From assembly GCF_007995085.1 (NCBI RefSeq), contig NZ_VOQS01000005.1, positions 2,232,001 through 2,296,000 of the forward strand: a DNA stretch of 64,000 nucleotides, read 5' to 3'. A program made the translations under genes and the position numbers. Shown piece after piece: positions 9,553 to 26,588 of the stretch. The stretch is from Paraburkholderia azotifigens (GTDB lineage Bacteria; Pseudomonadota; Gammaproteobacteria; Burkholderiales; Burkholderiaceae). Numbering within the stretch: position 1 is the first letter of the stretch; each line of letters starts with the position of its first letter. The notes below the pieces were generated by a model. That model searched no databases, was not told the origin of the DNA, and worked only from the letters and a program-made list of their open reading frames with translations.

Positions 9553-11184
9553 TTACCAGCCCGCGGCGGCGCCGTCGCTGCGCGGATCGCTTCCCGCTTC
9601 GAACAAGCCATCAGGATGGCGAACGATTGCGCCTGCATGGCCCATCGCTTCGTCGTAGGCGGCGAGCACTTCCACGTCGTGGCCGAGCGCGCGCAACGCG
9701 TCGATGGTCTGGGCCGGGAAGCGTGCTTCCAGCTTGAGCGAATCGGTGGACTGGCCCCAGGTGCGGCCAAGCAGCCAGCGCGGCGCATCGATCGCGGCCT
9801 GCGGATTCCAGCCGAAGCGCGCGATGCGCGAGAACACCGCGCTTTGCGACTGCGGCTGGCCATCGCCGCCCATGTTGCCGTAGACCATCGTGCGGCCATC
9901 GGCGAAATGGGCGAGCGCCGGATTGAGCGTGTGGAACGGGCGGCGGCCCGGCATCAGCGGATTGAGCGACGATGCATCGAGCGAGAAGCTGCAGCCGCGG
10001 TTCTGCCAGTTGATGCCCGACTGCGGCAGCACGATGCCGCTGCCGAACTCGTGATAGATGCTCTGGATGAAGCTGACCGCGATACCTTCGTTATCGATGA
10101 CACCCATCCAGACCGTGTCGCCAGGGCCACGGCCTTTGCCCCACGGCGCGGCGTGCGACATCGACAGCTCGCTCGCCATCGCGTCGAGTGCCGCGTGCTC
10201 GAGCTGCGTAACCGGATCGATTCGCATATGGTCCGGATCGGTCACGTGTTGGTCGCGCACCTTGAAAGCGAGCTTGGTCGCCTCGACGCACGCATGTACG
10301 AACTCGGGGCCGAGCGGGTCCATGTCGTCGGTGAGCACGCGATCCAGCACGCCGAGAATCAGCAGCGAGACGAGTCCTTGCGTCGGCGGCGGCATGTTGT
10401 AGACCGTGCCGAGCGTGTGCTTGAGGGTGAGCGGCGCGCGTTCGCGGGCGCTGTGCCGTTCGAGATCGTCGAGCGTGACGAGCGTTTCCAGCGACGCGAG
10501 ATCGCTCGCGATGCTGCGCGCGAGATCGCCGCGATAGAAGTCGTCGAGACCGGCATCGGCGAGTTGTTGGAGCGTGGCGGCGAGACGTGCGTTGACAAAG
10601 CGCTCGCCGCTGCGCGGTGCGCGTGAATCGGGCAAGAAGGTTTGCGCGAAGCCCGCCACGCTTTCCAGTTCACCGCGCTTGCTTGAGATGCACTCGGCCT
10701 GGCTGCGCGTGACGGGAATGCCGCTCTTCGCGTAATGGATGGCGTCTTCGAGTAGTCGCGCGACGGGCAAGCGGCCGCCGAGCGTGTCTTTCGAGAAGCG
10801 CTGCGCGAAGTCCCAGCCGGACACGGTGCCCGCGACCGTATTGGCCGCGAGCGGACCGCGTGCGGGAATCGCGCTCAGGCCAAGCGCGCGATACGTTTCG
10901 ATGTCGGCGCGCATCGCCGCCGCGCCGCACGCCTCGATGCCGATGGGCGCGTGACCGGGGCGCGAGATCAGCCAGAAGCCGTCTCCGCCGATGCTGTTCA
11001 TGTGCGGATAGACCACCGCGATGGTCGCTGCGGCGGCGATCATCGCCTCGACTGCGTTGCCGCCTTCACGCAGGACGGCAAGGGCGCTTTGTGATGCGAG
11101 CGAGTGCGGCGCGACCGCCATGCCGCGCGATCCGCGCGTGGGATTGAGTGTGTTGGCCGCGACGTGCGCGTGTTCCAGAGGCAT
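9553..11184 (-). CDS. Gamma-glutamyltransferase-family Ntn hydrolase, likely oxamate amidohydrolase (HpxW-like)
   Basis: This 543-residue protein has the two-part GGT architecture: an N-terminal large subunit (MAVAPHSLASQSAL...GGNAVEAMIAAA, IGGDGFWLI) and a small subunit. The small subunit would start at the autocatalytic Thr357 in GPGDTVWMGVIDNEG. It lacks an obvious signal peptide, unlike many periplasmic GGTs, which favours a cytosolic catabolic amidohydrolase. In Klebsiella, HpxW of this superfamily hydrolyses oxamate to oxalate and ammonia. The neighbouring OxlT-like carrier, HpxZ, amidase and DUF1116 genes make that role the best guess. An ordinary GGT or another amide substrate cannot be excluded. 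ATG 11184 has AAGGAA upstream, with a GntR-type palindrome just beyond it. Confidence 0.8.
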   Translation of the reverse strand: MPLEHAHVAANTLNPTRGSRGMAVAPHSLASQSALAVLREGGNAVEAMIAAAATIAVVYPHMNSIGGDGFWLISRPGHAPIGIEACGAAAMRADIETYRALGLSAIPARGPLAANTVAGTVSGWDFAQRFSKDTLGGRLPVARLLEDAIHYAKSGIPVTRSQAECISSKRGELESVAGFAQTFLPDSRAPRSGERFVNARLAATLQQLADAGLDDFYRGDLARSIASDLASLETLVTLDDLERHSARERAPLTLKHTLGTVYNMPPPTQGLVSLLILGVLDRVLTDDMDPLGPEFVHACVEATKLAFKVRDQHVTDPDHMRIDPVTQLEHAALDAMASELSMSHAAPWGKGRGPGDTVWMGVIDNEGIAVSFIQSIYHEFGSGIVLPQSGINWQNRGCSFSLDASSLNPLMPGRRPFHTLNPALAHFADGRTMVYGNMGGDGQPQSQSAVFSRIARFGWNPQAAIDAPRWLLGRTWGQSTDSLKLEARFPAQTIDALRALGHDVEVLAAYDEAMGHAGAIVRHPDGLFEAGSDPRSDGAAAGW

Positions 11185-11194
11185 TGACGTTTCC

Positions 11195-11204
11195 TTGTAT
11201 ACAA
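11195..11204. promoter_or_regulatory. Probable GntR/FCD operator
   Basis: TTGTATACAA is a perfect 10-bp palindrome of the form bound by many FCD-type GntR regulators. It lies 10 bases before the HpxW-like start codon and downstream of the gntR gene on the same strand, so it may block transcription or translation of the hpxW-MFS unit. Confidence 0.5.
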
Positions 11205-11319
11205 CGAAAGGAGTCAACGCGAGATCCGTGCCAAGGCTTGGTAAAAACCCTGATCAAGCTTGCCGGGTAAGGCTTTCAGCGCTGTTTCAGCGAACCCGGA
11301 GCGGAGGCAGGGGATGTCG

Positions 11320-12102
11320 TCAGATGGTGCGCCGAGGCCTCGCCGGTGCGCGCGCGGTGGCTTCACGCCCTGCTGCGGTGCGCGCGGCGAGCAGGCGCTG
11401 CATGGTGAGGCCGCGCACGCTGGCCTGGCTGCCGCCAATGTGACGCGACACGCGTTCGACGCTCAGGGCGCCGTCGCCGCGGCGAATGGCGTCGAGAATG
11501 GCGGCGTGCTCGTCATACGTTTCGGCGATGCCGTCGCCGCGTACGAGATCGAGTCGACGCACAACACGAATGCGATCGGTGACGCGCTGCATCGTCGAAG
11601 TCAGTTCGTCGTTGCCCGCGGCCGCGACCAGCGCATGGTGAAATGCTTCGTCCAGCTCGACGAGCTTGCGGCCATCGGCGATGCGCCGCGCGCGCCCGAC
11701 GTTCCAGACTCGGTCGAGCGCATCGAGCAGGAGATGCAGTCCAGGCGGCGGTGTTCCGCTGCTGCAAAGCTTCCGCACGGCGAAGGTTTCGATCATCTGA
11801 CGCATCTCGTAGAGATCGTCGAAGCGCTTGTTGTCGATCGGCACGACTTCCCAGCCGCCGCGCACATAACCTTGCATCAGGCCATCGCTTTGCAGGCGCT
11901 GCAGTGCTTCTCGCGCGGGCGTGCGCGAGACCGCAAAGCGTTCGGCGATGGCGCCTTCCGTGAGCCGGTCGCCCGGCAGAAGGTGCATGTCGAAGATTTC
12001 TTCGCGCAGGGCGTAGTAGACGCGATCCGCCCGTGTGAGCGTGGCGTGTCGCGCGATAGCGGGGCGCTCGTCGGGCGTCATGTTCAGCTTGATGTCTGGC
12101 AT
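11320..12102 (-). CDS. GntR-family transcriptional regulator (FCD domain)
   Basis: This 260-residue regulator has a winged helix at about residues 25-90 (YYALREEIFDMHLLPGDRL, then FAVSRTPAREALQRLQSDG). A helical FCD ligand/metal domain follows (residues about 100-225), with DEAFHHALVAAAGN and a C-terminal His segment. The start at 12102 (MPDIKLNM) was chosen over a start 18 bases upstream. It lies between marR and the HpxW-like gene on the same strand and probably controls the latter through the palindrome at 11195-11204. Ligand unknown, perhaps a pathway intermediate. Confidence 0.93.
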   Translation of the reverse strand: MPDIKLNMTPDERPAIARHATLTRADRVYYALREEIFDMHLLPGDRLTEGAIAERFAVSRTPAREALQRLQSDGLMQGYVRGGWEVVPIDNKRFDDLYEMRQMIETFAVRKLCSSGTPPPGLHLLLDALDRVWNVGRARRIADGRKLVELDEAFHHALVAAAGNDELTSTMQRVTDRIRVVRRLDLVRGDGIAETYDEHAAILDAIRRGDGALSVERVSRHIGGSQASVRGLTMQRLLAARTAAGREATARAPARPRRTI

Positions 12103-12167
12103 GACCGAAGAGCTTATCAAAGGAAGGCGCGTCGCAAAAAAGCGCAGACCGCCGGCAAGCGGGAAAA

Positions 12168-12734
12168 TCAGGGCGCGTCGGCTTCGCTTTCGTCCTGTGC
12201 GAGCAACTGGCTGTCGGGCAGCCGGAAGGGCACGAGGTCGTCCGAGTGGTTGGCTTCCACCAGCCGGATCATCTGGAGCATGAAGACATCCCGCTCGACG
12301 GGCGACAGATGCTCGATGGTGCGATCGTGCGCGCGCTGCACGGCGTCGGCCATCTTTCTGACCAGACGCTTGCCCGCGGGCGTGAGCCTGACGAGCCGCA
12401 GCCGCTTGTCATGGGCGGCTTGGGTGCGGGTCACGAGCCCGCGTGCGTTGAGTCGCGGAATGACTTCCGCGACGCTGGAGCGCTCAAGTCCGACTTCGAT
12501 GGCAAGCGAGTTCTGATCCATCTCGCCGAGCGATTCCAGCGCGGTGAGCAGACTGTATTGCACCGGCGTGATGTTGAATTCGCTCGTTTCCTGCACGAAC
12601 AGGAACGTGTGGATCTGATGCATACGGCGGATCAGAAAGCCCGGCCGCGAAAACAGCGGCGAGCGCGCTTGCCGTTCCGCAAGCTCTGCACGAATGCTTT
12701 TGATGTCGATGTGATCGGTGACAGTGGTTCGCAT
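12168..12734 (-). CDS. MarR-family transcriptional regulator (paralogue of the one at 26061)
   Basis: This 188-residue protein has a MarR winged helix at about residues 55-145 (ITPVQYSLLTALESLG, LERSSVAEVIPRLNARGLV, DKRLRLVRLTPAGK). It aligns along its length with the MarR protein at the far end of the locus, sharing RPGFLIRR(M/L)HQIH and ITPVQYS(L/I)LTALE. It is divergent from the amidohydrolase-hydroxylase run. A GGTACACC element occurs twice in the 330-base gap between them, so it likely represses that promoter until a substrate binds. Confidence 0.92.
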   Translation of the reverse strand: MRTTVTDHIDIKSIRAELAERQARSPLFSRPGFLIRRMHQIHTFLFVQETSEFNITPVQYSLLTALESLGEMDQNSLAIEVGLERSSVAEVIPRLNARGLVTRTQAAHDKRLRLVRLTPAGKRLVRKMADAVQRAHDRTIEHLSPVERDVFMLQMIRLVEANHSDDLVPFRLPDSQLLAQDESEADAP

Positions 12735-13064: not shown

Positions 13065-14327
13065 ATGTCACAAGTTCTGCTCAAAGGGGGCCGCGTCGTC
13101 GACCCGGCCCAGAAGATCGACGCCACGCTCGACGTTCTGGTGGACAACGGCATCATCGCCGGGATCGGCTCCGATATTGCGGTTCACGCGCGCCAGGCGG
13201 AGGTGATCGACTGCAGCGGAAAGCTCGTGCTGCCGGGCCTTATCGATACGCACAGCCACATCTATCAGTACGTCACGGGCCGCTTCGGCCTCAACGCGGA
13301 TCAGTGCGGCGTGCAATCGGGCGTGACGACGATCATCGATCAGGGCGGACCAAGCTGCATCACGATTCCGGGCTTCCGGCATTACGTGGCGGAACGCTCG
13401 GCCACGCGCGTGCTGGCCTTCATTTCCGCTTACCTCGTTGGCGGGCTCGAAGGTCACTACTACCCGGACCTGTATCGCCCCGAATGTCTCGACGCCGATG
13501 CAACCATCAAGTCGATCCGCGCCAATGCCGATCTGGTCAAGGGCATCAAGGCCCACGCTGAAATCGGCGGCTTCGCGCGCTGGGGTCTCGACGTGATGAA
13601 GATCGCCGCGAAGATCGGCCGTGGCGCTGAACTGCCGCTGTATATCCACTTCGGCCAGCTGTGGCCGAAGCCTGAAAGCGGCGGGCTCCCGGTGCAAGCC
13701 GATTCCATCTTCAATCAGGTGGTCGAGACGCTCAAGCCCGGCGATATCCTCGCGCATCCGTTCAGCCGTCATCCGGGCGGCTTCGTCGAGGAGAACGGGC
13801 AACTGCATCCGCTCGTGCATGAAGCGGTCGCGCGCGGCCTGAAGATCGACGTCGGTCATGGTTCGCATTTCAGCTTCAAGACGGCGCGCATCGTGCTCGA
13901 TGCGGGCGTCGTGCCCGATACGCTCGGCGCCGACATGCACGGCTACAACACGCACGTACCCGCGCCCGCCGGCACGCCCGACAGCCATCCCGACGAGGAA
14001 CACTCGTTCCTCGGCCGCACGCAGTTCAGTCTCGTCAGCGCGATGACCAGCATGCTCGCGCTCGGTCTGCCGCTGCAGCACGTCGTCGCGATGGCGACCT
14101 GCAACGCAGCGAAGATGGTTGGCATGGAAGATCAGATCGGCTCGCTGCAAGTGGGGCGGGGCGCGGACATCAGCGTGCTAGACGACCGTCGTGGCCGCTG
14201 GATTCTGGAGGACAACGAGGGCACGCAGGTCATCGCCGACCGCATGCTGTCGCCGCTTTTCTGCCTGCGCGACGGCGTGCGTCACGACGCTGTCTCGCCG
14301 ACGCTGCCGCTCGCGCGCGCCGCCTGA
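13065..14327 (+). CDS. Amidohydrolase/deacetylase-family metallohydrolase (dihydroorotase-like fold)
   Basis: This 420-residue TIM-barrel metallohydrolase has the metal-binding LPGLIDTHSHIYQY near residue 60, conserved His residues in LYIHFGQLWP and ILAHPFSRHPG, and a late Asp in TLGADMHG. The composite end (IGSLQVGRGADISVLD) is typical of cyclic amidases and N-acyl deacetylases. It is first in the plus-strand run, immediately before a molybdenum hydroxylase. That favours opening of a hydroxylated cyclic amide or imide ring. Deacetylation of an N-acyl compound is an alternative. No close named orthologue is recognised. Confidence 0.88.
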   Translation: MSQVLLKGGRVVDPAQKIDATLDVLVDNGIIAGIGSDIAVHARQAEVIDCSGKLVLPGLIDTHSHIYQYVTGRFGLNADQCGVQSGVTTIIDQGGPSCITIPGFRHYVAERSATRVLAFISAYLVGGLEGHYYPDLYRPECLDADATIKSIRANADLVKGIKAHAEIGGFARWGLDVMKIAAKIGRGAELPLYIHFGQLWPKPESGGLPVQADSIFNQVVETLKPGDILAHPFSRHPGGFVEENGQLHPLVHEAVARGLKIDVGHGSHFSFKTARIVLDAGVVPDTLGADMHGYNTHVPAPAGTPDSHPDEEHSFLGRTQFSLVSAMTSMLALGLPLQHVVAMATCNAAKMVGMEDQIGSLQVGRGADISVLDDRRGRWILEDNEGTQVIADRMLSPLFCLRDGVRHDAVSPTLPLARAA

Positions 14328-14345
14328 GAACGCGAGGCGCACACG

Positions 14346-16754
14346 ATGATCAAACGTCCCCACACACGCAGCGACATCCATCGTCCGCAAGGCATCGGCG
14401 CCTCGCTGACCCGCAAGGAAGACGAACGCTTCATGCACGGGCGCGGTGAATACGTTCCCAACATTCGCATGGTCGGCATGGTTGACGTGGCATTCGTGCG
14501 CAGCCCGATTGCGCATGGCCATATCGTCGGGATCGAAAAGCCGCAAGCGCACGCGCACGCCGTCTATACGCTCGCCGATCTGGAGGGCGTGAAGCCCATC
14601 GTCGCGAACTCGGGTCTGGCGGGCTTCAAAAGCTCGCAGCAACCCGTGCTCGCGAGCGGCAAGGTGCGCCAGGTCGGCGAAACCATCGCGATGTGCGTGG
14701 CGGCGACGCGCGCCGCGGCCGAGGATATCGCCGCGCAGGTCTTCGTCGATTTCGAGGAACTGCCCGCCGTGGTCGACATGCTCGACGCGCGTCGCGAAGA
14801 TTCAGCGCTGGTGCACGAGCACTGGGGCGACAACGTGTTTCTCGAAACCTTCGTCGATGCGAATCCCGACGTCGATCTCGACGCCATTCGCCGCGATGCG
14901 CCGATCCGCGTGCATCGCAAGTTGCGCACCGCGCGCCAGAGCATGGCGCCGATGGAAGGGCGCGGCGTCGTCGCGCACTGGGACCGCCGCCTGTCGCAAC
15001 TGATCGTGCATACGTCCGCGCAAATGCCGCACATCACGCGCACGGGACTCGCGGAATGTCTCGGCCTCGACGAAGGACAGGTACGCGTGATCGCCCCCGA
15101 TGTCGGCGGCGGCTTCGGTTACAAGGGCATTCTGCTGCCCGAGGAAGTCTGCTGCGGCTGGCTCGCGATGCAACTGGAAAAGCCGGTGCGCTGGATCGAG
15201 GACCGCCGCGAGCAGCTCACCGCGAATGCGAATTGCCGCGAACACGATTACGACATCACCGGCTATGCGGACCGCGACGGCCGCTTGCTCGCGGTCGAAT
15301 GCAATGCGCACGTGGATTCGGGCGCGTACTCGTCGTATCCGTTTTCAGCGTGCCTGGAAGCGGCGCAGGTCGGCAGCATTCTGCCGGGACCGTACAAGAT
15401 GGATCGTTTCCGCTGTCGCACGTGGTCGGTCGCAACCAACAAGCCGCCGATTCTTCCCTATCGCGGCGTGGCGCGAACGGGAGTGTGCTATGCGATCGAA
15501 ACGATCATGGATGGAATTGCGCTCGAAGCGGGTCTCGAACCTTACGAGGTGCGTCTGCGCAATCTCGTGCAGCCGCACGAGATGCCCTACGACAACATCA
15601 CGAAGAAGCATTTCGACAGCGGCGACTATCCCGAGGCAGTGCGCCGTGCGATGGCCGCAATCGACCTGCCCGCAGTGCGCGCACGTCAGCGGCGCGGCGA
15701 GCCGGACGGCAGGCGCATCGGCTTCGGCATGTCGGTCTTCTGCGAGCAGGGCGCGCACGGGACGTCGGTGTATCACGGCTGGGGCATTCCGATGGTTCCG
15801 GGCTACGAGCCCGCTGTGATCCGCCTCACGCCAGACGGCGTGCTCGAAGTGCGCGCGGGCGTCCATTCGCATGGGCAGAGCATGGAGACCACGCTCGCGC
15901 AGATTGCCCACGAAGTGCTCGGCATCGACACGGACCGCGTGCGCATCGTGCTCGGCGACACGGGCGTCACGCCGTACTCCACCGGAACGTGGGGCTCGCG
16001 CTCGATCGTGATGGCGGGCGGGGCAGTCGGCCGCGCTTCGAAGGAACTCAAGGAGCGGTTGATGAAAATCGGCGCGCATCTGCTACAGGAACCCATCAGC
16101 GAAGTGCGCTGGGAAAGCGGCGCGGTGGTCGGTAAGGCGGGGCGGCGCACCTTGCGGGAGATCGCGCGCACGTGGTATCTCGCGCCGCAATTGCTGCCGC
16201 CCGACGTCGACCCGCGCGGCCTCGAAGTCTCGACGTCCTATCAGGCAAAACGCGATTCGGGCACCTTCAGCTATGCATGTCATGCCGTGGTCGTTGCGGT
16301 CGATCCGGCGCTCGGCCAGACCGAAATCCTCGATTACGCGATCGTGGAAGACGGCGGCGTGCTCATCAATCCGATGGTCGTCGAAGGACAGGTTTACGGC
16401 GGCGCGGCGCAAGGTATCGGCACGGCGCTCTATGAAGCGATGCCCTATAGCGAGGACGGCCAGCCGCTCGCCTCAACGCTCGCCGACTATATTCTGCCGG
16501 GCGCGACAGAGGTGCCCGCGATTCGCATCGAACACATGGAGACGCCGGCGCCTTATACGGAGTTCGGGCAGAAGGGCATCGGCGAAAGCGGGGCGATCGG
16601 TCCGCCCGCCGCGCTCGCCAATGCCGTCAACGATGCATTGCGCGAACTTGGCGTGCGTATCGACCAGTTGCCCATCACGCCGCGTCTGATCGTCGAAGCC
16701 CTCGCGACGCCGCGTGCGCAGCAAGCCGATACACGCAAAGGAATGCCCGCATGA
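14346..16754 (+). CDS. Xanthine dehydrogenase-family molybdopterin-binding subunit (form II CoxL-like)
   Basis: This 802-residue large subunit carries the molybdenum cofactor. An N-terminal aldehyde-oxidase a/b hammerhead domain covers about residues 20-130. The molybdopterin-binding domains follow, with DVGGGFGYKG (near residue 255), the active-site loop LPYRGVARTGVCY and the catalytic Glu in GQKGIGESGAIG (near residue 745). True CO dehydrogenases have an AYxCSFR loop and form II proteins AYRGAGR. Here it is PYRGVAR, so CO oxidation is unlikely and hydroxylation of a heterocycle or aldehyde is favoured. Its stop overlaps the FAD subunit start by four bases. Confidence 0.94.
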   Translation: MIKRPHTRSDIHRPQGIGASLTRKEDERFMHGRGEYVPNIRMVGMVDVAFVRSPIAHGHIVGIEKPQAHAHAVYTLADLEGVKPIVANSGLAGFKSSQQPVLASGKVRQVGETIAMCVAATRAAAEDIAAQVFVDFEELPAVVDMLDARREDSALVHEHWGDNVFLETFVDANPDVDLDAIRRDAPIRVHRKLRTARQSMAPMEGRGVVAHWDRRLSQLIVHTSAQMPHITRTGLAECLGLDEGQVRVIAPDVGGGFGYKGILLPEEVCCGWLAMQLEKPVRWIEDRREQLTANANCREHDYDITGYADRDGRLLAVECNAHVDSGAYSSYPFSACLEAAQVGSILPGPYKMDRFRCRTWSVATNKPPILPYRGVARTGVCYAIETIMDGIALEAGLEPYEVRLRNLVQPHEMPYDNITKKHFDSGDYPEAVRRAMAAIDLPAVRARQRRGEPDGRRIGFGMSVFCEQGAHGTSVYHGWGIPMVPGYEPAVIRLTPDGVLEVRAGVHSHGQSMETTLAQIAHEVLGIDTDRVRIVLGDTGVTPYSTGTWGSRSIVMAGGAVGRASKELKERLMKIGAHLLQEPISEVRWESGAVVGKAGRRTLREIARTWYLAPQLLPPDVDPRGLEVSTSYQAKRDSGTFSYACHAVVVAVDPALGQTEILDYAIVEDGGVLINPMVVEGQVYGGAAQGIGTALYEAMPYSEDGQPLASTLADYILPGATEVPAIRIEHMETPAPYTEFGQKGIGESGAIGPPAALANAVNDALRELGVRIDQLPITPRLIVEALATPRAQQADTRKGMPA

Positions 16755-17587
16755 AAGCCGCTATCTACGATTATGCAAAGCCGCTAGCCTGCGATGAGGC
16801 GATCGCGCTCATCAGTCCCACGGAAGGCATGGGCAAGTTCGTCGCAGGCAGCCAGTCGCTTGGACCGATGATGAACCTGCGGCTTGCGCAGCCGGAAATG
16901 CTTGTTGATCTGCGCGCCATCGCGGCGTTGCGCGCATGCTGCGTCGAAGGCGAAACCGTCACGCTTGGCGCGTGCGTCACGCATGCGGAGATCGAGGACG
17001 GCAAGGTCGAAACCGGTACGCGTGGGCTCATGGAATATGTCGCGGGCGGTATCGCCTATCGCGCGGTGCGCAATCGCGGCACGCTCGGCGGTAGTCTCGC
17101 GCATGCCGATCCCGCTGCCGACTGGATCAATACGATGTGCGCGCTCGATGCAACCTTTCTCGTCGCGGGGCCGGGCGGCGCGCGCACGATCGGCAATCGC
17201 GCGTGGATGGCGGGCGCATTCACGACTGCGCTAGAACCGGACGAGATCCTCACAGGCGTGCGCTTTGCGCGGCTCTCGCCGACGGCGCGCTGGAGCTACT
17301 ACAAGTTCAACCGAAAGCCGGGCGAATTCGCGGAGGCGATTGCCGTGTTCATCGACGACGCAGCACGCGGCGTGTGCCGTGCGGTAATCGGCGCTATCGA
17401 TGCGCCGCCTTACGCAATCGACGATGCCCGCGTGTTGCTGCGCGACGCCGATCCGGACACAACGTGTTTCGATGTACATCTCGAAGCGGCGGGCATCGAA
17501 GGGGATACCTACGAACATGAAGTGCATCGTGTCGCGCTCGTGCGCGCGGCGGCGGGCATTCGCAATCAGAACGGGAAAGCATCATGA
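16751..17587 (+). CDS. FAD-binding subunit of the molybdenum hydroxylase (CoxM-like)
   Basis: This 278-residue subunit carries FAD in the electron chain Mo-2Fe2S-FAD. The FAD-binding motifs AGSQSLGPMMNLRLAQP (residues about 33-50) and NRGTLGGSLAHADPAADW (near residue 115) are intact, and the C-terminal CO_deh_flav_C region follows. It overlaps both neighbouring subunit genes by four bases, so the three subunits are translationally coupled. Confidence 0.95.
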   Translation: MKAAIYDYAKPLACDEAIALISPTEGMGKFVAGSQSLGPMMNLRLAQPEMLVDLRAIAALRACCVEGETVTLGACVTHAEIEDGKVETGTRGLMEYVAGGIAYRAVRNRGTLGGSLAHADPAADWINTMCALDATFLVAGPGGARTIGNRAWMAGAFTTALEPDEILTGVRFARLSPTARWSYYKFNRKPGEFAEAIAVFIDDAARGVCRAVIGAIDAPPYAIDDARVLLRDADPDTTCFDVHLEAAGIEGDTYEHEVHRVALVRAAAGIRNQNGKAS

Positions 17588-18805: not shown

Positions 18806-18807
18806 CC

Positions 18808-20001
18808 ATGCGTGCCAACGATGCTAACGTGCTGGCACTGAGCCGCGTGCATGCGGTGCGTCCGCAATGGCGCGGCGTCGTGGCGGCGTGCGACGCGGTG
18901 CGTCTTCCGGACTTCACGCTGCTGCACGCGGGGCCTCCGTTCGACGACCCGCGCAAGCCCTCGGTGCCCGTGCGCTCGTCGGCGGTCCTGTGCTGCCTGT
19001 ACGAAGGCTGGGCGAAGGACGAAGCTCAGGCCGAACGCCTGATCGAGCAAGGCGACGTGCGCCTCGAATGTGCGCAGGCGTATGGCGTGGTGACGCCGCT
19101 CGCGGCTGTCGTTTCTCCGCGCACGATGCTCGTCGAAGTCGCGGATGCGAACGATCCCACGGCGCGCGCGTGGTCGTTGCTCGGAAGCGGCGCGGGTCCG
19201 CAGATCCGTTTCGGCAGCCGCGATGTACGCATACTCGAACGCATGAAGTGGCGCGATGCGGTGCTCGCGCCCGCGCTCGATGAAGCGCTCGCACGAGGTC
19301 CAGTCGATCTGCTCGCACTGGCGCGAGCCGGTCTCGATGACGGCGACGACCTCCATGCGCGCACCACGGGCGCGACCGCCGCGTTGCGCGCGCTGCTCGC
19401 CTCGCGTCTGGATCATGGGGAAGTCGACGCGATGCTGGCGCAGACGCCGCTCTTTTTTCTCACGCTCTGGATGGCCGGATGCGCGCTGATGCTGTCGGCG
19501 GCCGCGAGCGATGGACAATCCGCGTCGACGCTCGTCGTGGCACTGGCGGGCAACGGAGAACGCGTGGGTATCCGGCTCGCGGGCGCCCCGTCGCGCTGGG
19601 TTACCGCCGCTGCGCACGCGCCGGAGGGGCCGCGCAGCGATCCGCAACAGCAGACAGCCGCCGCGCTGCTCACGGGCGACAGCGGCGTCATCGACGCGGC
19701 GGGTTTCGGTGCGCAGGCGCTCGCGTTCGCGCCGGAATCCGCGCAAGCGTTCGAGACATACCTGCCGGCGGGGTGGCGCGATCGGCAAGCGCGCATCCAT
19801 ACAGGTCCACATCCTGCGTTCGACGGATTGCCCGGAGTGCTGGATGCGGCGCGTGTGGTTCGGGAAGGTATCGCGCCCCTCGCCGCGATTGCGATGATCG
19901 GCGCCGACGGACACGCGGGCTTGCTGGGCCGAGGCCTTTACGCGGCGCCGCCCGAACTCTTCGCGCGTGCACTGACCAGACTATCGGGTGATGCCGTATG
20001 A
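18808..20001 (+). CDS. DUF1116 protein (AllG-like, related to a subunit of oxamate carbamoyltransferase)
   Basis: This 397-residue protein has DUF1116 family features. The family includes E. coli AllG/YlbE, which acts with AllF/FdrA and AllH in carbamoyl transfer involving oxamate in anaerobic allantoin use. No fdrA, allH or carbamate kinase gene is visible anywhere in the window, so this copy stands alone. ATG 18808 follows the previous stop by two bases and the end overlaps hpxZ by four, placing it firmly in the operon. It may be a stand-alone carbamoyl or amide-processing enzyme for the pathway intermediate. The family call is from memory and moderately secure. Confidence 0.7.
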   Translation: MRANDANVLALSRVHAVRPQWRGVVAACDAVRLPDFTLLHAGPPFDDPRKPSVPVRSSAVLCCLYEGWAKDEAQAERLIEQGDVRLECAQAYGVVTPLAAVVSPRTMLVEVADANDPTARAWSLLGSGAGPQIRFGSRDVRILERMKWRDAVLAPALDEALARGPVDLLALARAGLDDGDDLHARTTGATAALRALLASRLDHGEVDAMLAQTPLFFLTLWMAGCALMLSAAASDGQSASTLVVALAGNGERVGIRLAGAPSRWVTAAAHAPEGPRSDPQQQTAAALLTGDSGVIDAAGFGAQALAFAPESAQAFETYLPAGWRDRQARIHTGPHPAFDGLPGVLDAARVVREGIAPLAAIAMIGADGHAGLLGRGLYAAPPELFARALTRLSGDAV

Positions 20002-20387
20002 GCGTAGAGCCGGTTAACGATCCCGAGACGCTCGCGGCCGTCGAAGCCGCATTCGATCAATACGAGCTCGCGCTCACGACCAACGATGTTGCCGTGCTCG
20101 ACACGCTCTTCTGGAACAGCACGCATACGCTGCGCTTCGGCGCGACGGAAAACCTGCATGGCTACGATGCGATCCGCGATTTTCGTGCGCAGCGCCCGGG
20201 CAAGGGACTGATGCGCACGATCGTGAGTCGTTCGGTGACGACCTTCGGGGCGGACTTCGCCGTCGCGAACATCGCGTTCACGCGCGAAGGCGAGGCGCGC
20301 ATCGGGCGGCAGTCGCAGACGTGGATACGGATCGACGGTCAATGGCGCGTGGTCGCGGCGCATGTCAGCTGGATGGACCCGTCGTGA
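19998..20387 (+). CDS. hpxZ: HpxZ-like SnoaL/NTF2-fold protein (oxalurate catabolism)
   Basis: This 129-residue NTF2-fold protein has the pattern of HpxZ/DUF3225: AAFDQYELALTTNDVAVLD, FWNSTHTLRFGATENLHG and the C-terminal RQSQTWIRIDGQWRVVAAHVSW. In Klebsiella, hpxZ sits beside the hpxWXY genes for oxalurate and oxamate breakdown. The exact role of the protein is not established. Here it overlaps both the DUF1116 gene and the amidase gene, a linkage that strongly suggests oxalurate-like chemistry. Confidence 0.85.
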   Translation: MSVEPVNDPETLAAVEAAFDQYELALTTNDVAVLDTLFWNSTHTLRFGATENLHGYDAIRDFRAQRPGKGLMRTIVSRSVTTFGADFAVANIAFTREGEARIGRQSQTWIRIDGQWRVVAAHVSWMDPS

Positions 20388-21589
20388 TGCAAAACGATCT
20401 GCTGCAACCGGGGCTGCACGGGGCCTTCGTTGCCGACGGCTTCGATGCGTTGCCTGCCGCCGCGCGTCCGCCGCGCTCGGGCGACAAACTCGCGGGCCTG
20501 CGCATCGCGGTGAAGGACGTGTTCGATATCTCCGGGCTTCGTACGGGCAGCGGCAATCTTGCGTGGCGCGACGAACAGCCGGTCGCCGCCAGGACGGCGC
20601 TGGCTGTTCGCGCGTTGCTCGAAGAAGGCGCGCAATGGATCGGTAAAACGGTCACCGATGAACTGACCTACAGCCTCGCCGGCGTGAACGCGCACTATGG
20701 CACGCCCGTCAATCCCGCCGATCCCGCACGCATTCCGGGCGGATCGTCGTCGGGATCGGTGGTGGCCGTGGCGGCGGAGCACGCGGACATCGCGCTCGGC
20801 ACCGATTGCGGCGGCTCGGTGCGGTTGCCGGCGAGCTATTGCGGCGTGTGGGGCATGCGGCCCACACACGGGCGCATCGCGGCGGACGGCTGTCTCACGC
20901 TTGCGCACAGCTTCGACACGGTCGGCTGGTTTGCGAGGGACGCTCGCAGGCTCGCCGATGTGTTCGAAGTGCTGGCGCGCAGCATCGTCATGGAGCGCGA
21001 CGAACCGTTCGGCCCGCACGTGCCGCGCAACCTGCTTGCCTGCGTCGATGCGCCGGTGTTGGCGCGCTTCGAAGCATCGCTGCCGGCACTCGGCGACGCG
21101 GTGACGTTCGTCGAGCCCAAGGCGTCGCTTGCCGATTGGGCTCAGGCGTTTCGCGTGCTGCAAGCGGCGGAAATCGCGCAACGCTATGGCGCATGGGCGC
21201 ACGAGCACGCCGCGAGCTTTGGGCCCGACGTCGGCGCGCGCTTTGCGATGAGCCGGACCATCACCCGCGAACAGGTCGCCGACGCGCAGCGCGTTCGCAT
21301 CGAAGCGATCCGCACGATGGCCGATGCGCTGCCGCAAGGCACGTACTGGCTCGTGCCGACCGTGCCGGGCATCGCGCCCCGCGCGGATGCTTCAGCGGAA
21401 GCAGTCGATCACGCGCGCACGCGCTCGCAGCAGATGCTGTGCGTCGCGGGCCTCGCAGGCCTGCCGCAAGTAAGCATGCCGTGGACGAGTTTCGAGGGCG
21501 CGCCCGTCGGCTTGTCGCTGATCGGCGCGCGCGGCTCGGACGAAGGTGTGCTGCGCGCCGCACGCGCGGTGCACGAAGCCATGCGGTAG
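20387..21589 (+). CDS. Amidase-signature hydrolase (AtzE/HpxY-like)
   Basis: This 400-residue amidase has the complete Ser-cisSer-Lys triad. Lys43 lies in RIAVKDVFD, the cis-Ser in IPGGSSSGS (about residue 121) and nucleophile Ser144 in GTDCGGSVRLPAS. It is shorter than most amidase-family members (450-500) because the C-terminal part is compact. It overlaps hpxZ by one base (TGATG), the arrangement seen for AtzE/HpxY-type amidases acting on carboxybiuret or oxalurate. No AtzG/HpxX small subunit gene is visible. Hydrolysis of an oxalurate- or ureido-like intermediate is inferred. Confidence 0.88.
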   Translation: MQNDLLQPGLHGAFVADGFDALPAAARPPRSGDKLAGLRIAVKDVFDISGLRTGSGNLAWRDEQPVAARTALAVRALLEEGAQWIGKTVTDELTYSLAGVNAHYGTPVNPADPARIPGGSSSGSVVAVAAEHADIALGTDCGGSVRLPASYCGVWGMRPTHGRIAADGCLTLAHSFDTVGWFARDARRLADVFEVLARSIVMERDEPFGPHVPRNLLACVDAPVLARFEASLPALGDAVTFVEPKASLADWAQAFRVLQAAEIAQRYGAWAHEHAASFGPDVGARFAMSRTITREQVADAQRVRIEAIRTMADALPQGTYWLVPTVPGIAPRADASAEAVDHARTRSQQMLCVAGLAGLPQVSMPWTSFEGAPVGLSLIGARGSDEGVLRAARAVHEAMR

Positions 21590-21662: not shown

Positions 21663-22493
21663 ATGACGAAGCACTTGAGCGAAGCGCAGATCGCGCACTT
21701 CAAACAGCACGGCTATGTCTACCCGATGCGCGCGATCAGCGCGGAAGAGGCCGCGGAATATCGACGCATCGTCGAGCAATACGAGGCGTCTTCCGGCGAG
21801 GACGTCAACAAGACTCTGAAAATCAAGGGTCATCTGGCGCTGCCCGCTATCGTCGAGCTCGCGCGTCATCCCGTCATTCTCGATGCTGTCGAAGATCTCA
21901 TTGGGCCGGACATCATGTTGTTCGGCGCGTCCATCTTCGCAAAGAACGGACGCGATCCGCGTTATGTGTCGTGGCATCAGGACTCGACCTATTTTGGGCT
22001 CACGCCGCATGAGGAAGTGACGGTGTGGGTCGCGCTCACACCCGCGAATTCGATCAACGGTGTGCTGCGCGTGCTGCCCGGTTCACACAGCGGCCCTGAT
22101 CTGAAGCACGTCGAAACCTACGCAAAGGACAACATGCTCGCGAAAGGGCAGACGCTTGTCGGTATCGACGAGAACCTCGCCGTCGAAATGCCGCTGCAGC
22201 CGGGTGAATTTTCGATGCATCACGAACGCACCGCGCACAGCTCGCTGCCGAATCGTTCGGATGACAGGCGTATCGGCTTCGCATTCTTCTACGTGCCGGC
22301 GCATGTCCGCTCGGCCTCGGGCCGGCGTCGCGCGACGCTCGTGCGCGGCGTCGACCGCTTTGATCACTGGGACGCCGACACGCTGCCCGAATACGATTGC
22401 GATCCACGCTCGATGAGCGAACTCGCGCAAACGTGGGGCGAATATAAGGACGGTGAAGTGAAGCAGGCAGCGGACATGGCCGCGCCGCAATGA
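21663..22493 (+). CDS. Phytanoyl-CoA dioxygenase (PhyH)-family Fe(II)/2-oxoglutarate oxygenase
   Basis: This 276-residue protein has the PhyH double-stranded beta-helix. The metal-binding HxD is in YVSWHQDSTYFG (near residue 105), the distal His in HHERTAHSSLPN, and a following Arg (DDRRIGF) fits 2-oxoglutarate binding. It is the last gene of the plus-strand run, 73 bases after the amidase, and a strong hairpin follows it. It may hydroxylate or demethylate the growth substrate before the hydrolytic steps. Substrate not deducible. Confidence 0.9.
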   Translation: MTKHLSEAQIAHFKQHGYVYPMRAISAEEAAEYRRIVEQYEASSGEDVNKTLKIKGHLALPAIVELARHPVILDAVEDLIGPDIMLFGASIFAKNGRDPRYVSWHQDSTYFGLTPHEEVTVWVALTPANSINGVLRVLPGSHSGPDLKHVETYAKDNMLAKGQTLVGIDENLAVEMPLQPGEFSMHHERTAHSSLPNRSDDRRIGFAFFYVPAHVRSASGRRRATLVRGVDRFDHWDADTLPEYDCDPRSMSELAQTWGEYKDGEVKQAADMAAPQ

Positions 22494-22502
22494 ATGACGC
22501 CG

Positions 22503-22539: not shown

Positions 22540-22545
22540 TTCGCC

Positions 22546-23445
22546 TCAGGCGAGCTTCGAGGTCTCGCTCCAGTCGTCGGCTGTGTGATGCGGCGCGCGA
22601 AAACGTGCAAGAAACTGCCGCGCGCGCGGCGTTTGCGGCGCGCTGAAGAACTGCTCGGGCGGCGCGCTCTCGACGATCTGGCCCGCATCCATGAACACGA
22701 CCCGGCTTGCCACCTGGCGCGCGAACTCCATCTCGTGCGTGACGATCACCATGGTCGCTCCTTCTTGCGCGAGCGAGCGCATCACGTGCAGCACTTCGCC
22801 GACGAGCATCGGGTCGAGCGCGCTGGTGGGTTCGTCGAACAGCAGGATGTCGGGCTTTATCGCGAGCGCGCGCGCGATGCCCACGCGCTGCTTCTGCCCG
22901 CCCGACAGCCGCGACGGAAACGCATCCATCTTGCCCGCGAGACCGACGCGCTCCAGCAGCCGTTCCGCTTCCGCACGCACTTCGTCGCGCGATCGACCGA
23001 GAACATGCAAGGGCGCTTCCATCACGTTCTGCAGTACCGTCAGATGCGGCCACAGCGCGAAGTGTTGAAACACCATGCCGATGCGCGCACGCGAACGCGC
23101 GAGTTCGGCGTCGCTCATCTTGATGGACGAACCTTCGCGCACACCCATGCGCCGGTTCGACACATGGACCGTGCCCGCGTCGGGAATTTCAAGCCAGTTC
23201 ACACAGCGCAGCAGCGTCGACTTGCCGCAACCCGACGGTCCGAGCAGGCACACGGTCTCGCCCTTGTGCACGGTGAGCGACACGTCGCGCAGCACTTTGT
23301 TCTCGCCGAACGACTTCGAGATGCCGTTGAGTTGCAGGACTGTTTCGGTGCCTGGCCGCGCCGCTTCGCCGGAAAGGCTGGACGATGGCCCGGCTGCATC
23401 GGCTGCGCGCATGATGGTGGGCGGGACGTCGTTCGAAATGTTCAT
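22546..23445 (-). CDS. Amino acid-type ABC transporter ATP-binding protein
   Basis: This 299-residue ATPase has Walker A LLGPSGCGKSTLL, Q-loop MVFQHFALWPH, signature SRLSGGQKQRV and Walker B ILLFDEPTSALDP followed by the switch His in VTHEME. It belongs to the HisP/GlnQ group for polar compounds. A roughly 35-residue N-terminal extension (from MNISNDVPP) is unusual. ATG 23445 overlaps the permease stop by four bases. It energises the importer encoded by the next three minus-strand genes. Confidence 0.95.
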   Translation of the reverse strand: MNISNDVPPTIMRAADAAGPSSSLSGEAARPGTETVLQLNGISKSFGENKVLRDVSLTVHKGETVCLLGPSGCGKSTLLRCVNWLEIPDAGTVHVSNRRMGVREGSSIKMSDAELARSRARIGMVFQHFALWPHLTVLQNVMEAPLHVLGRSRDEVRAEAERLLERVGLAGKMDAFPSRLSGGQKQRVGIARALAIKPDILLFDEPTSALDPMLVGEVLHVMRSLAQEGATMVIVTHEMEFARQVASRVVFMDAGQIVESAPPEQFFSAPQTPRARQFLARFRAPHHTADDWSETSKLA

Positions 23446-24101
23446 GCTCTGCGTTCCTCGGCAAATCTCGAGAGTAAGCCGCTGCCGCTTTCGATCACGA
23501 GGCAGATGGCCCAGTACAGCAGCACAGCCGTGACGAACGCGGCAAACGGAATGAAATAGGTTGCCTGAATGCCGTTCATCTGATGCGTGAGTTCGCCGAC
23601 TGCGATGACCGTGAGAAACGCGCTGTCCTTGACGATCTGCACGAGCTGATTGCCGATCATCGGCAAGGCGACGGTGAAGACCTGCGGCAGGATGATCCGG
23701 CGAACCAGACTGAAGCCATGAAAGCCATAGGCGCGCGCGGCTTCGATCATCGGCGTGGGCAGACCGGCCCACGCACCGCGTAATAGCTCGGCCATGTAGG
23801 CGGTGTTGTAGAGAATCAGCGCGATGGCGCCGGCCCACCAGTTCGACAGACGAATGCCCGCCGTGGGCAGGCCGAAATAGATCAGATAGACGAACAGCAG
23901 GAAGGGCGCGCAGCGCATCGCGTCGACATAGAGCGTCGCGAGCCGCGCGATTGCGGGGCGTTTCGACATCAACGCGGGCGTCAGCAGCGCGCCGAGCACG
24001 AGCGAGGCGACCGCCGCCACCGCAAGCAGACCGAGTGTGTCGAGCAGGCCGGACAGCACGTCCGCGCGCTGTTGCCAGACGATCAGGAAGTGCTCCGTCA
24101 T
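23442..24101 (-). CDS. ABC transporter permease (HisM/GlnP type), second subunit
   Basis: This 219-residue membrane protein has about five transmembrane segments and the EAA loop EAARAYGFHGFSLVRRIILPQ near residue 135. It pairs with the adjacent permease and overlaps it and the ATPase gene by four bases each. Polar amino acid-type import is expected. Confidence 0.94.
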   Translation of the reverse strand: MTEHFLIVWQQRADVLSGLLDTLGLLAVAAVASLVLGALLTPALMSKRPAIARLATLYVDAMRCAPFLLFVYLIYFGLPTAGIRLSNWWAGAIALILYNTAYMAELLRGAWAGLPTPMIEAARAYGFHGFSLVRRIILPQVFTVALPMIGNQLVQIVKDSAFLTVIAVGELTHQMNGIQATYFIPFAAFVTAVLLYWAICLVIESGSGLLSRFAEERRA

Positions 24102-24742
24102 GTGCGAGCCTCCACGGGTTGGCGGCGCTCGATTATGCGTTGAGCCTTGACGAGCACGAACACGATCAGCCCGTAAAGCACGAGCGCAAAAACGAAAGGC
24201 GGTAATGGATCATAGGTGCGGGCGCCGACGCGCAAAGCCGCGCGCGTGATCTCGACGATGCCGATCACGGCGACTGCGGGCGTCGACTTGATCTGCAAGG
24301 TCATTTCGTTGACGAGGCCCGGCAGGCTTGCGCGCCAGATCTGTGGCATCACGATGCGGCGAAAGCGCACTGTCCGCGGCATCGCGAAGGCGAGCGCCGC
24401 GTCGTATTGATCGCGCGGAAAGTTGATCAGGGCCGCGCGCCAGATCTCGCAGTTGAATGCGGCGGTGCTGATGGTGAGCGCGAGTATCGCGGCCGGTGTC
24501 GGATCGAGCGAGATGCCGAACTGCGGCAGCGCAAAAAAGATCAGTAGCGTGAGCGTCACGGCCGGACATGAGCGGATGAGGCTCACATAGCCGACGACGA
24601 TGCGGTTCAGGAACGGCACGCGTGCCCAGCGGATCAGTGCGAGGCCGAGCCCCAGCGGGACACCGAGCACGATGCTGACGACCGAAAGAACCACGGTCGC
24701 CAGCGCCCCCTGAGCGATGCTCCAATAGTCGAAGGCGTTCAT
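24098..24742 (-). CDS. ABC transporter permease (HisQ/GlnP type), first subunit
   Basis: This 214-residue membrane protein has several hydrophobic segments. The coupling loop has the form AALAFAMPRTVRFRRIVMPQ near residue 135. It overlaps the second permease gene and lies 21 bases after the binding protein. Together they form the transmembrane pore of the importer. Confidence 0.93.
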   Translation of the reverse strand: MNAFDYWSIAQGALATVVLSVVSIVLGVPLGLGLALIRWARVPFLNRIVVGYVSLIRSCPAVTLTLLIFFALPQFGISLDPTPAAILALTISTAAFNCEIWRAALINFPRDQYDAALAFAMPRTVRFRRIVMPQIWRASLPGLVNEMTLQIKSTPAVAVIGIVEITRAALRVGARTYDPLPPFVFALVLYGLIVFVLVKAQRIIERRQPVEART

Positions 24743-24763
24743 CGATGCGGGATCACGAAGACG

Positions 24764-25633
24764 TCAGTTGACCGACTGCGGCATGTCCTTGTAGCTCGCA
24801 CCGAGCCACTTCTGTTGAAGCTGGTACATCTCGCCGCTCTTGCGCAGTTCGAGCAGCGCGGCATCGACCATCTTCAACACGTCGGTGTTGCCCTTTTTCA
24901 CGGCCCACGCGATATAGGTCGGCTTGCCGATCGCCTGGCCGACGGTGAACACATCCGGCCGGGTCTTGGCCAGCGAGTTCAGACTGATCTGCGTGTTGGC
25001 GACAGCGTCGACCCGACCGACGCCGAGATCCTGATAGGCCTCCGGGTACGACTGGTATTCGATGATCTGCTTGATGCCATTTCCGCCATGCTTCTTCTTC
25101 AGTTGTTCGTCGAAGAGCTTCAGGTCCGCGAGCATGGCGCTGCCTGTTTCTGCGCCGACTACCTTGCCGACGAGATCGTCCGGGGTCTTGATCGGCGAAC
25201 CTTTTTTCGTTGCATAGAACGTGATGGCTTCGCAGGTCGGGGAGGCAAAGTCAAAGGTCTTCTTGCGTTCTTCGGTGACGAGCACGGCGGTGAGCGCCAT
25301 GTCGTACTTGCCGGTGGTCACGCCGGGCAAAATGCCGGACCACGGCATGATCTGCTGCTTCACGTCGATGCCGATCTTTTTGCGCACCAGCGCGAGGAGG
25401 TCGTTGTCATAGCCCGTGTTCTTGCCGTCAGCCACGAACTCGAACGGGTTGTAGTCGTCCTCGGTTGCGACGCTCAGATAGCCGCGTGCCTTGATTTCTT
25501 CGGTGCTGGCAGCGTGCGCCGCGTGAACGATGCCGAAGGTGGCGACGAGCGCAAATGCACATGTGCGCAGGAACGTGACGGCGGTGCGCTGTTTCGACTG
25601 AGCAGAATCGCGGCGAGTGAGACGGACTGACAT
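24764..25633 (-). CDS. ABC transporter substrate-binding protein (family 3, polar amino acid type)
   Basis: This 289-residue periplasmic protein has an Arg-rich leader plus a hydrophobic signal peptide ending near HAAHA-AS. A family 3 solute-binding fold follows (YLSVATEDDYNPFEFV near residue 50, GYDNDLLALVRKKIG, GKYDMALTAVLVTEERKKT, GVGRVDAVANTQISL). It should capture the substrate for the downstream permeases. Given the locus, the ligand may be an N-heterocycle or a ureido acid rather than an amino acid. ATG 25633 has AAAGGGG upstream. Confidence 0.93.
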   Translation of the reverse strand: MSVRLTRRDSAQSKQRTAVTFLRTCAFALVATFGIVHAAHAASTEEIKARGYLSVATEDDYNPFEFVADGKNTGYDNDLLALVRKKIGIDVKQQIMPWSGILPGVTTGKYDMALTAVLVTEERKKTFDFASPTCEAITFYATKKGSPIKTPDDLVGKVVGAETGSAMLADLKLFDEQLKKKHGGNGIKQIIEYQSYPEAYQDLGVGRVDAVANTQISLNSLAKTRPDVFTVGQAIGKPTYIAWAVKKGNTDVLKMVDAALLELRKSGEMYQLQQKWLGASYKDMPQSVN

Positions 25634-26060
25634 GAAGAGCCCCTTTGATAGTGGTAGCAACCGCGCGCGCAACGCTTCTTGCGCACGCGATCAGCGAAGA
25701 TGATCATCGAATCGCTAATTTGTTTGGATACTGACGATTCTGCTTTTGAATATGCAAGGGGTATGCCAACGATCTCTTTCTCCGCGAGCGACGGATGCAG
25801 CGGGGCATAAGGTCCGAAAAGGGTGTTGGCGCAAAAATGCGTGGTGCACCACGCATGTTTTAAAAGCCTTGTAATCGTGCATAGGCGCACCGAGTTGCGA
25901 CATACGATACGGGCAATCCGCGGATTGCTTGCCGAAAGGCAAATCCGCACGGAATTCAGCGGGTGGGATCTTCGTCCGGAGGAAAATGCGATGTATGCTG
26001 ACGAACATCGCGCGCAGCGCATCGACGATCAGCATGCAAGGCAAACGGAACTCTCAGCAC
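25634..26060. promoter_or_regulatory. Divergent control region between the ABC operon and the second marR
   Basis: AT-richer than its surroundings. It carries a perfect 20-bp palindrome at 25837-25856 and no gene I can support. Upstream in-frame starts of the marR reading frame (25929, 25986, 25995) fall inside it. Confidence 0.5.
25837..25856. promoter_or_regulatory. Perfect 20-bp palindrome, candidate MarR operator
   Basis: ATGCGTGGTGCACCACGCAT reads identically on both strands. Its core GGTGCACC matches the GGTACACC elements in front of the amidohydrolase gene. It lies about 200 bases from each flanking start, as expected for a site controlling both the ABC operon and marR. Confidence 0.65.
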
Positions 26061-26588
26061 ATGGACGCATTAACGACAACTGGCCTTGCCGACGACAACG
26101 ACACGGAGCCGGTACTCACATGGCGCGACACGGCGCTCAGTCAACGGCCCGGCTTTCTGATCCGGCGGCTGCATCAGATTCACGTGGCTCTCTTCATGGA
26201 AGAATGCGCGGCCGAAGGCATTACGCCGGTGCAATACAGCATTCTCACGGCGCTCGAGCAGCTGGGACCTTCGGAGCAGGTCGTGCTGTCGCGCGCCGTG
26301 GGGTTGGATCGCGCGAACACGGCGGATGTGATCGCGCGGCTGGCGCAGCGGCGCTTCGTGCAGAGCCGTGTGTCGCGCATGGATCGGAGGAAGAAGGTCG
26401 CGGAGTTGACTGGCGTGGGACATGCGCTGCTCGCGCGGCTGGAGTCACCCGTCGCGCGAGCGCACGAGAGGACCATTGCCGCGCTGCCAGTCGAGGAGCG
26501 TAAGACGTTTCTCAGGCAACTGCTGCTGCTAGTCGAAAAGAGCAACGAACTTAGCCGCACGCCCGTTGTGAGCCTGACCGATGCCTGA
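26061..26588 (+). CDS. MarR-family transcriptional regulator (second paralogue)
   Basis: This 175-residue MarR protein has SQRPGFLIRRLHQIH, GITPVQYSILTALEQLG, the recognition-helix region LDRANTADVIARLAQRRFV and the wing MDRRKKVAELTGVG. It matches the regulator at 12168 over its length, so the two ends of the locus carry paralogous repressors. The start is uncertain. ATG 26061 gives an N-terminus like the paralogue's. ATG 25986 or 25995 would follow a GGAGG at 25978-25982 but add an unusual leader. Confidence 0.88.
   Translation: MDALTTTGLADDNDTEPVLTWRDTALSQRPGFLIRRLHQIHVALFMEECAAEGITPVQYSILTALEQLGPSEQVVLSRAVGLDRANTADVIARLAQRRFVQSRVSRMDRRKKVAELTGVGHALLARLESPVARAHERTIAALPVEERKTFLRQLLLLVEKSNELSRTPVVSLTDA

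Follow-up and report, generated by a model that had tools for sequence, protein, structure and literature searches.

What might the genes at positions 9553..26588 of the analysed stretch of Paraburkholderia azotifigens DNA degrade, and which of them belong together? The stretch, hereafter called the window, comprises 64,000 nucleotides (G000:C5:2232001-2296000) within a genome of 9.7 Mb. The initial annotation described this locus as a candidate undescribed catabolic unit for nitrogen-containing heterocycles that ends in oxamate or oxalate, with hydroxylation after import. The gene types named for 9553..26588 were all recovered together by Pfam and NCBIfam searches. The oxalate-type carrier, which had been placed inside this interval, is located just outside it, at 8166 to ~9374 on the minus strand. 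No description of the cluster was found in the literature searched, in agreement with its proposed novelty. We concluded that Paraburkholderia-related soil bacteria carry a conserved, apparently undescribed gene cluster that probably imports, opens and degrades a nitrogen-containing ring or ureide via oxamate to oxalate and ammonia. Its constant core is a metal-dependent amidohydrolase together with an AllG protein that stands without its usual partners, and the import and oxidation modules vary by lineage.

The protein listed as DUF1116 in the initial annotation is indeed present, but its identity as an AllG without AllF and AllH, and its constant pairing with the amidohydrolase, had been missed. 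DUF1116 is now named AllG in Pfam and represents a subunit of oxamate carbamoyltransferase; the window protein is 32% identical to AllG of Escherichia coli. According to the available parts of PMC11326118 the E. coli oxamic transcarbamylase requires AllF, AllG and AllH together, and in the allFGH triple deletion oxamate formation was not restored by single genes, allG alone included. In the genome that contains the window AllH (PF11392) gave 0 matches at E 0.001, with a positive E. coli control. A full-length AllF was likewise not found in this genome, where partial matches of 25-29% identity covered 142-179 of 555 residues, the best one reaching 29% over residues 117-295. AllK had no match within the window. 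The AllG of the cluster stands alone in its own genome, without AllH and full-length AllF, and in the absence of both the known E. coli transcarbamylase reaction is improbable for this solo AllG.

A PF06545 match was detected in 16 of 398 sampled genomes of the phylum, the present genome included. Among 20 AllG neighbourhoods, AllF was found in all seven canonical-type loci (L036-L040, L042, L043) and in none of the 13 remaining ones (L024-L035, L041). In 19 further loci, AllF or YahF was located in the 1.5 kb flank of 14 of the 15 canonical-side AllG genes, and neither was found in the 1.5 kb flanks of the three solo-type loci L133-L135, which showed CoxG and MarR, amidohydrolase, or amidase and HpxZ relatives. 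L136 gave no match, and L023 was included in the tree and lies outside the AllF flank check. The exception on the canonical side was L132 (G440), in which AllG lies nearer to the canonical clade and an amidase-like match adjoins it. A quick tree of 93 AllG proteins, in which branches were long and the deep forks weak, separated the 68 solo-type from the 25 canonical-type proteins by a single branch with a support of 100; the two types had been assigned from the best BLAST match. The rows nearest to the window protein were those of Burkholderia sp. E7m39, Burkholderia sp. Ac-20365 and Caballeronia cordobensis, in line with an origin from Burkholderiaceae of the Paraburkholderia/Caballeronia kind. 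The same residue was found at a frequency of at least 94% in both the solo (68 rows) and the canonical (25 rows) group in 27 columns, including H55, R149, R160, D195, H198, N264, W279, D306 and S307, and six columns were conserved yet different between the groups. The predicted structure (predicted local distance difference test, pLDDT, 78.5) matched 3clq, an uncharacterised relative from Enterococcus faecalis, and nothing else clearly.

The core became apparent from two counts, both of which are inflated by close relatives. Of 118 related genomes, 14 contained the amidohydrolase (E 1e-60 or better), and exactly these 14 contained a solo-type AllG; the chance of two identical sets of this size is 1/C(118,14)=1.9e-18 if kinship is ignored. 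In one of these, G040, the two genes were on different contigs. A canonical AllG alone was found in seven further genomes. The second count covered 61 named loci, which were obtained from one pattern scan for solo AllG with two conserved peptides, so that distant solo AllG loci are under-counted. Presence was scored with identity thresholds set per gene and 30% length coverage, and 52 of the 61 loci were at least 19 kb long. The amidohydrolase was present in 52 of the 61 and absent from L053, L078, L080, L094, L096, L099, L100, L104 and L105, several of which are cut by contig ends. Relatives of AllF, AllH, AllK and the Yah proteins were found in none of the 61 at their own thresholds. Because of these counts we regard the amidohydrolase and solo AllG as the unit. 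The initial annotation had proposed a search for the same gene order in other genomes, and the same genes did recur across many of the 61 loci, more often than by chance: MarR1-type regulators in 38, the amidase in 29, HpxZ in 27, PhyH in 21, the HpxW-like gene in 15, the carrier in 6 and GntR in 5.

Some modules around this core are alternatives to each other. The large subunit of the molybdenum (Mo) hydroxylase was present in 37 of the 61 loci and a Rieske oxygenase, of the vanillate-demethylase type and accompanied by a reductase of its own, in 10, and no locus had both. Similarly, a family-3 binding protein was found in 33 loci, a branched-chain-type binding protein in 13, and both in none. 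The oxidation step is thus exchangeable between Mo hydroxylase and Rieske oxygenase, and since the latter replaces the former in 10 loci, hydroxylation of a heterocycle does not define the unit. The Mo hydroxylase did not show the features of an aerobic carbon monoxide (CO) dehydrogenase: the sequence AYxCSFR, which we take to be the active-site motif of that enzyme, is absent, PYRGVAR is present, and NF040766 gave 551 bits against 950. In the amidohydrolase, the residues H63, H65, K162, H195, H231 and D290, the putative metal ligands of this superfamily, were kept in 44 of 44 orthologs; orthologs for this comparison, and for Thr368 below, had at least 50% identity and at least 70% coverage.

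The likely end of the pathway was approached from HpxZ and the HpxW-like hydrolase. According to the accessible sections of PMC6219798, the pocket of AtzH consists of Tyr22, Arg46, Arg63, Arg66, Arg73, Phe94, Arg96, Gln106 and Gln108, and AtzH most likely decarboxylates 1,3-dicarboxyurea, for which Tyr22 and Arg46 are needed. HpxZ of the cluster has Y22, R46, R63, R66, R73, F94 and R96 when compared by residue number, unaligned; Q105 and Q107 are one position below the two glutamines, and S106 and T108 stand at their numbers. Y22, R46, R63, R66, R73 and R96 were present in 27 of 27 orthologs. In 10 of the 27 loci that hold both genes, AllG and HpxZ form one uninterrupted frame of 495-531 residues over the matched parts, in Pseudomonas, Amphritea, Stutzerimonas and Halopseudomonas. 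A protein search with a fused query returned both Pfam domains in 40 of the best 120 of 667 matches. Among the matches listed, the fusions are called 'oxalurate catabolism protein HpxZ' by several sources, and single-domain relatives 'DUF1116' or 'oxamate carbamoyltransferase subunit AllG family protein'. A fusion of AllG to the amidohydrolase was found in none of the loci tested. In L105, CoxG shares a single open frame with AllG, which spans 583 residues in the parts that matched. A DUF1989 protein, from what we take to be the family of carboxyguanidine deiminase, was observed in five of the 61 loci (L059, L060, L064, L068, L104), four of them without the amidase, and may replace the amidase.

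The HpxW-like protein matched 5hft, which we take to be HpxW, with 651 bits summed over two chains (E 2.7e-108 and 9.8e-84), and the next match in PDB had 252. Its nucleophile Thr368 was kept in 15 of 15 orthologs, and in seven gammaproteobacterial loci the gene comes immediately after the amidase, on the same strand. HpxW converts oxamate to oxalate and ammonia, as stated in the available part of PMC5270733, citing Hicks and Ealick 2016. The carrier and the HpxW-like gene are neighbours in relatives as well, where the pair lies on one or the other side of the core. We concluded that the HpxW-like gene, the carrier and GntR are accessory and that the oxamate module is optional. The genome also encodes an oxalyl-CoA decarboxylase (1015 bits, cut-off 739), and oxalate can therefore probably be used, as judged from this match. 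With AllG, HpxZ and the HpxW-like hydrolase, three separate families point to oxamate and oxalate as the end of the cluster. The proposal of a catabolic unit with this end therefore stood as far as a conserved unit points there, and had to be modified in that the genes for oxamate are not obligatory.

The family-3 binding protein kept Arg136, of the carboxylate type, in 33 of 33 orthologs. At the position of the amine-type Asp, which the aligned amino-acid binder has, Thr227 was found in 32 of 33 and Asn in one, and Leu or Met is present where that binder has Thr. These residues point to an acid without a free alpha-amine as the ligand. The two MarR regulators were proposed to be paralogs next to one GntR; they are 45% identical over 145 residues, and the GntR carries an FCD domain. 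The palindrome ATGCGTGGTGCACCACGCAT sits between the importer and MarR2. In 12 of the 61 loci, all of them closely related to the window, its core, GTGGTRYACCAC, precedes the binding-protein match by 144-203 bases; in the four more distant loci L082, L086, L098 and L101 it precedes the amidohydrolase match by 51-151 bases. Further copies occur elsewhere in L065, L071, L082 and L086. This placement before the importer or the amidohydrolase suggests that one shared regulator, perhaps MarR or GntR, could control the importer or the ring-opening enzyme, depending on lineage.

Taken together, the cluster may be a modular catabolic unit by which an imported, carboxylate-bearing N-heterocycle or cyclic ureide would be converted to oxamate, oxalate and ammonia, a reading to which we give even credence. 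The ABC (ATP-binding cassette) importer would take up an acid without a free alpha-amine, which PhyH and the Mo hydroxylase, or in other genomes the Rieske oxygenase with its reductase, would oxidise. The amidohydrolase would then open the ring to an oxalurate-like product, on which solo AllG and the amidase would act. The simplest reading of this step is that the amidase or AllG would remove the terminal ureido nitrogen, giving N-carboxyoxamate. By analogy, N-carboxyoxamate from oxalurate would be a diacid shaped like the AtzH substrate, and its decarboxylation by the AtzH-like HpxZ would yield oxamate. From oxamate, oxalate and ammonia would be released by the HpxW-like enzyme, and the oxalate would be moved by the carrier or used by the oxalyl-CoA decarboxylase encoded elsewhere in the genome. 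The starting compound, its ring and the chemistry of solo AllG are what we infer beside the gene content, conservation, co-occurrence, fusions and kept residues observed in this analysis. More tentatively, solo AllG could be a new type of enzyme, a member of the transcarbamylase family that has lost both partners and, either alone or fused to an AtzH-like domain, turns the oxalurate-like product into the N-carboxy acid for HpxZ. Carboxylated N-heterocycles would then reach oxamate by a widespread route with free exchange of Mo and Rieske enzymes.

Several observations weigh against this pathway. Neither a Mo nor a Rieske enzyme was found in 14 of the 61 loci at the thresholds used, some of them contig-cut (in L078 and L080 the Mo large subunit is cut by the contig end and falls under the coverage limit), and the Mo hydroxylases of L102, L106 and L108, which belong to the 14, are distant ones with 31-36% identity. 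HpxZ was missing from 34 loci and the HpxW-like gene from 46, so that an ending in oxamate is dispensable. No other cluster gene accompanies the solo-type AllG of L094 and L096. In L094, ahcY and metF lie beside it, and the same gene families occur in L096; a second use of solo AllG is possible there. A substrate for this amidohydrolase family was not found in the literature searched. The amidase is not AtzE/HpxX, for which TIGR02715 gave 192 against 426 bits and NF006631 203 against 461. An AtzG/HpxY partner was not seen, although no directed search for AtzG was made, and the overlapping HpxZ and amidase genes leave no room between them. In 10 of 33 orthologs of the binding protein an Asp occupies position 228, adjacent to Thr227, and the roles of Arg136 for a carboxylate and of Asp for an amine are presumed.

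The optional nature of the oxamate genes could also mean that the core degrades a ureide or N-acyl compound to a dicarboxyurea- or carbamate-like acid, not to oxalurate, and that the HpxW-like gene, the carrier and GntR form a separate oxamate/oxalate module that merely adjoins it. The HpxW-like gene (E 1e-140 or better) was detected in just 8 of the 14 core genomes, and its presence in 18 of the 104 genomes without the core also weighs against the pathway above. In four of the eight (G001, G043, G064, G081) it is at least 29 kb off or on another contig. The carrier and GntR are as rare as stated above, the module is found on either side of the core, and the substrate proposed for AtzH in the available text of PMC6219798 is 1,3-dicarboxyurea. 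Against a separate module speak the seven gammaproteobacterial loci in which the HpxW-like gene follows an amidohydrolase-AllG-HpxZ-amidase run on the same strand, and the activity of AllFGH, the characterised AllG-containing enzyme, on oxalurate and oxamate (PMC11326118, in the parts available). We consider such a separate module somewhat unlikely.

Solo AllG might instead be a non-enzymatic structural or activating partner of the amidohydrolase, with other hydrolases doing the chemistry, much as AtzG is such a partner of AtzE. The pairing across the 118 genomes would fit this role, as would the failure of allG alone to restore oxamate formation in E. coli (PMC11326118, available parts). The 27 columns kept in solo and canonical AllG, however, look like a kept active site, and fusion joins AllG to HpxZ in 10 loci and to the amidohydrolase in no locus tested; we regard a mere partner role as unlikely. 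A variant purine or allantoin pathway, in which a xanthine-dehydrogenase-like Mo enzyme and an allantoinase-like amidohydrolase feed oxalurate to an hpx-like end, appears very improbable. Oxalurate and oxamate are products of allantoin (PMC11326118), and the hpx operon is known to include HpxW and HpxZ (PMC3560190), as far as the available parts of both sources go. The Mo large subunit is nevertheless far below every listed xanthine dehydrogenase cut-off (at best 382 against 780 bits), the amidohydrolase is below that for allantoinase (55.8 against 357.9 bits), the run contained no recognisable enzyme for allantoate, urate or ureidoglycolate, and 10 loci have the Rieske oxygenase instead of the Mo enzyme.

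The plus-strand run extends from the amidohydrolase (13065) to PhyH (22493). Its first gaps are 18, -4, -4 and 25 bases, the joins from CoxG through the amidase are close or overlapping, and 73 bases follow before PhyH; this tight spacing is operon-like. MarR1, GntR, the HpxW-like gene and the carrier are read leftward, and the genes of the polar amino-acid-type importer (22546-25672, minus strand) lie to the right, divergent from MarR2. A plus-strand open reading frame at 11260-12516, which overlaps the regulators, had no family match in the profile searches. Elsewhere in the window we observed an IS240-type transposase gene to the left of the cluster (7213-7914), a heavy-metal transporter of the CusA/CzcA type from the resistance-nodulation-division (RND) family (659-3865) and a class I polyhydroxyalkanoate synthase (44608-46425).

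Features of the cluster, with positions in the window.
Feature	Position	Strand	Remarks
OxlT-like oxalate/formate-type carrier (major facilitator superfamily, MFS)	8166..9374	-	start anywhere in 9374-9552; TIGR04259 410 bits, cut-off 335
HpxW-like N-terminal nucleophile (Ntn) hydrolase (gamma-glutamyltranspeptidase, GGT, superfamily), predicted oxamate amidohydrolase	9553..11217	-	best PDB match 5hft
GntR-family regulator with FCD domain	11320..12120	-	PF00392, PF07729
MarR regulator 1, divergent from main run	12168..12734	-	PF01047
Amidohydrolase-superfamily metal enzyme (PRK09237 family), predicted ring opening	13065..14327	+	NF006689 428.9 bits, cut-off 371
Mo hydroxylase large subunit	14346..16754	+	best PDB match quinoline 2-oxidoreductase
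Mo hydroxylase flavin adenine dinucleotide (FAD) subunit	16751..17587	+	PF00941
Mo hydroxylase 2Fe-2S subunit	17584..18102	+	PF01799, PF00111
CoxG-like protein	18128..18805	+	PF06240
Solo AllG (DUF1116)	~18808..20001	+	open frame from 18763, ATG likely at 18808; PF06545 199 bits, cut-off 27
HpxZ/AtzH-like protein	19998..20387	+	NF033625 184.5 bits, cut-off 135
Amidase-signature (AS) hydrolase, PRK08310 family	~20387..21589	+	open frame from 20321, ATG likely at 20387; NF006169 537 bits, cut-off 391
PhyH-family oxygenase	21663..22493	+	PF05721
ABC importer ATPase	22546..23355	-	approximate start; PF00005
ABC importer permease 1	23442..24101	-	PF00528
ABC importer permease 2	24098..24742	-	PF00528
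Family-3 solute-binding protein	24764..25672	-	PF00497
Perfect 20-base palindrome ATGCGTGGTGCACCACGCAT, predicted importer operator	25837..25856		
MarR regulator 2, paralog of MarR 1	25929..26588	+	PF01047

The cluster holds a relative of AllG, a protein so far known only as one of three subunits of an E. coli enzyme. AllFGH was assigned in 2024, and the available parts of PMC11326118 give no separate role for each subunit; the solo AllG lineage, in part fused to an AtzH-related domain, offers a way to learn what AllG itself does. AtzH is the first member of the HpxZ/DUF3225 family with a shown catabolic function and a mapped active site (PMC6219798, available parts), and the cluster gives this family another testable context. 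A further prediction is that soil and plant-associated Burkholderiaceae and pseudomonads are a source of oxamate and oxalate.

Among known systems, the oxidative pyrimidine route with uracil dehydrogenase, barbiturase and ureidomalonase has another product and other enzyme families than the cluster; by analogy only, it follows a like logic of oxidation beside nitrogen, ring opening and cleavage of a ureido acid. The cyanuric acid operon atzDGEHF shares the AtzH pocket residues, by number, with HpxZ, and probably the order of ring opening, amidase and decarboxylation. It differs in that the run showed neither a recognisable cyanuric acid hydrolase nor an allophanate hydrolase and that HpxZ is tied or fused to AllG. 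With AllFGH and AllK of E. coli the cluster has the AllG family and its 27 shared columns in common. Its AllG, in contrast, belongs to a separate clade, lies beside a metal amidohydrolase and lacks AllH and full-length AllF in the genome and AllK in the window. The hpxWXYZ oxalurate/oxamate end of the Klebsiella purine pathway (ggt-atzG-atzE-atzH) likewise combines an HpxW-like hydrolase, an HpxZ/AtzH-like protein and an amidase-signature hydrolase; the first was recognised in the cluster by sequence only, from the 5hft match, and the second by NF033625. The amidase of the cluster is of another subfamily, no AtzG/HpxY was seen, and upstream purine enzymes were not recognised within the run. 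None of the contexts of atzG-atzE-atzH named in section 14 of PMC6219798, in the part available, includes DUF1116 or a Mo hydroxylase. To what it shares with hpxWXYZ the cluster adds the amidohydrolase, solo AllG, the exchangeable Mo hydroxylase or Rieske oxygenase, PhyH and an importer of its own.

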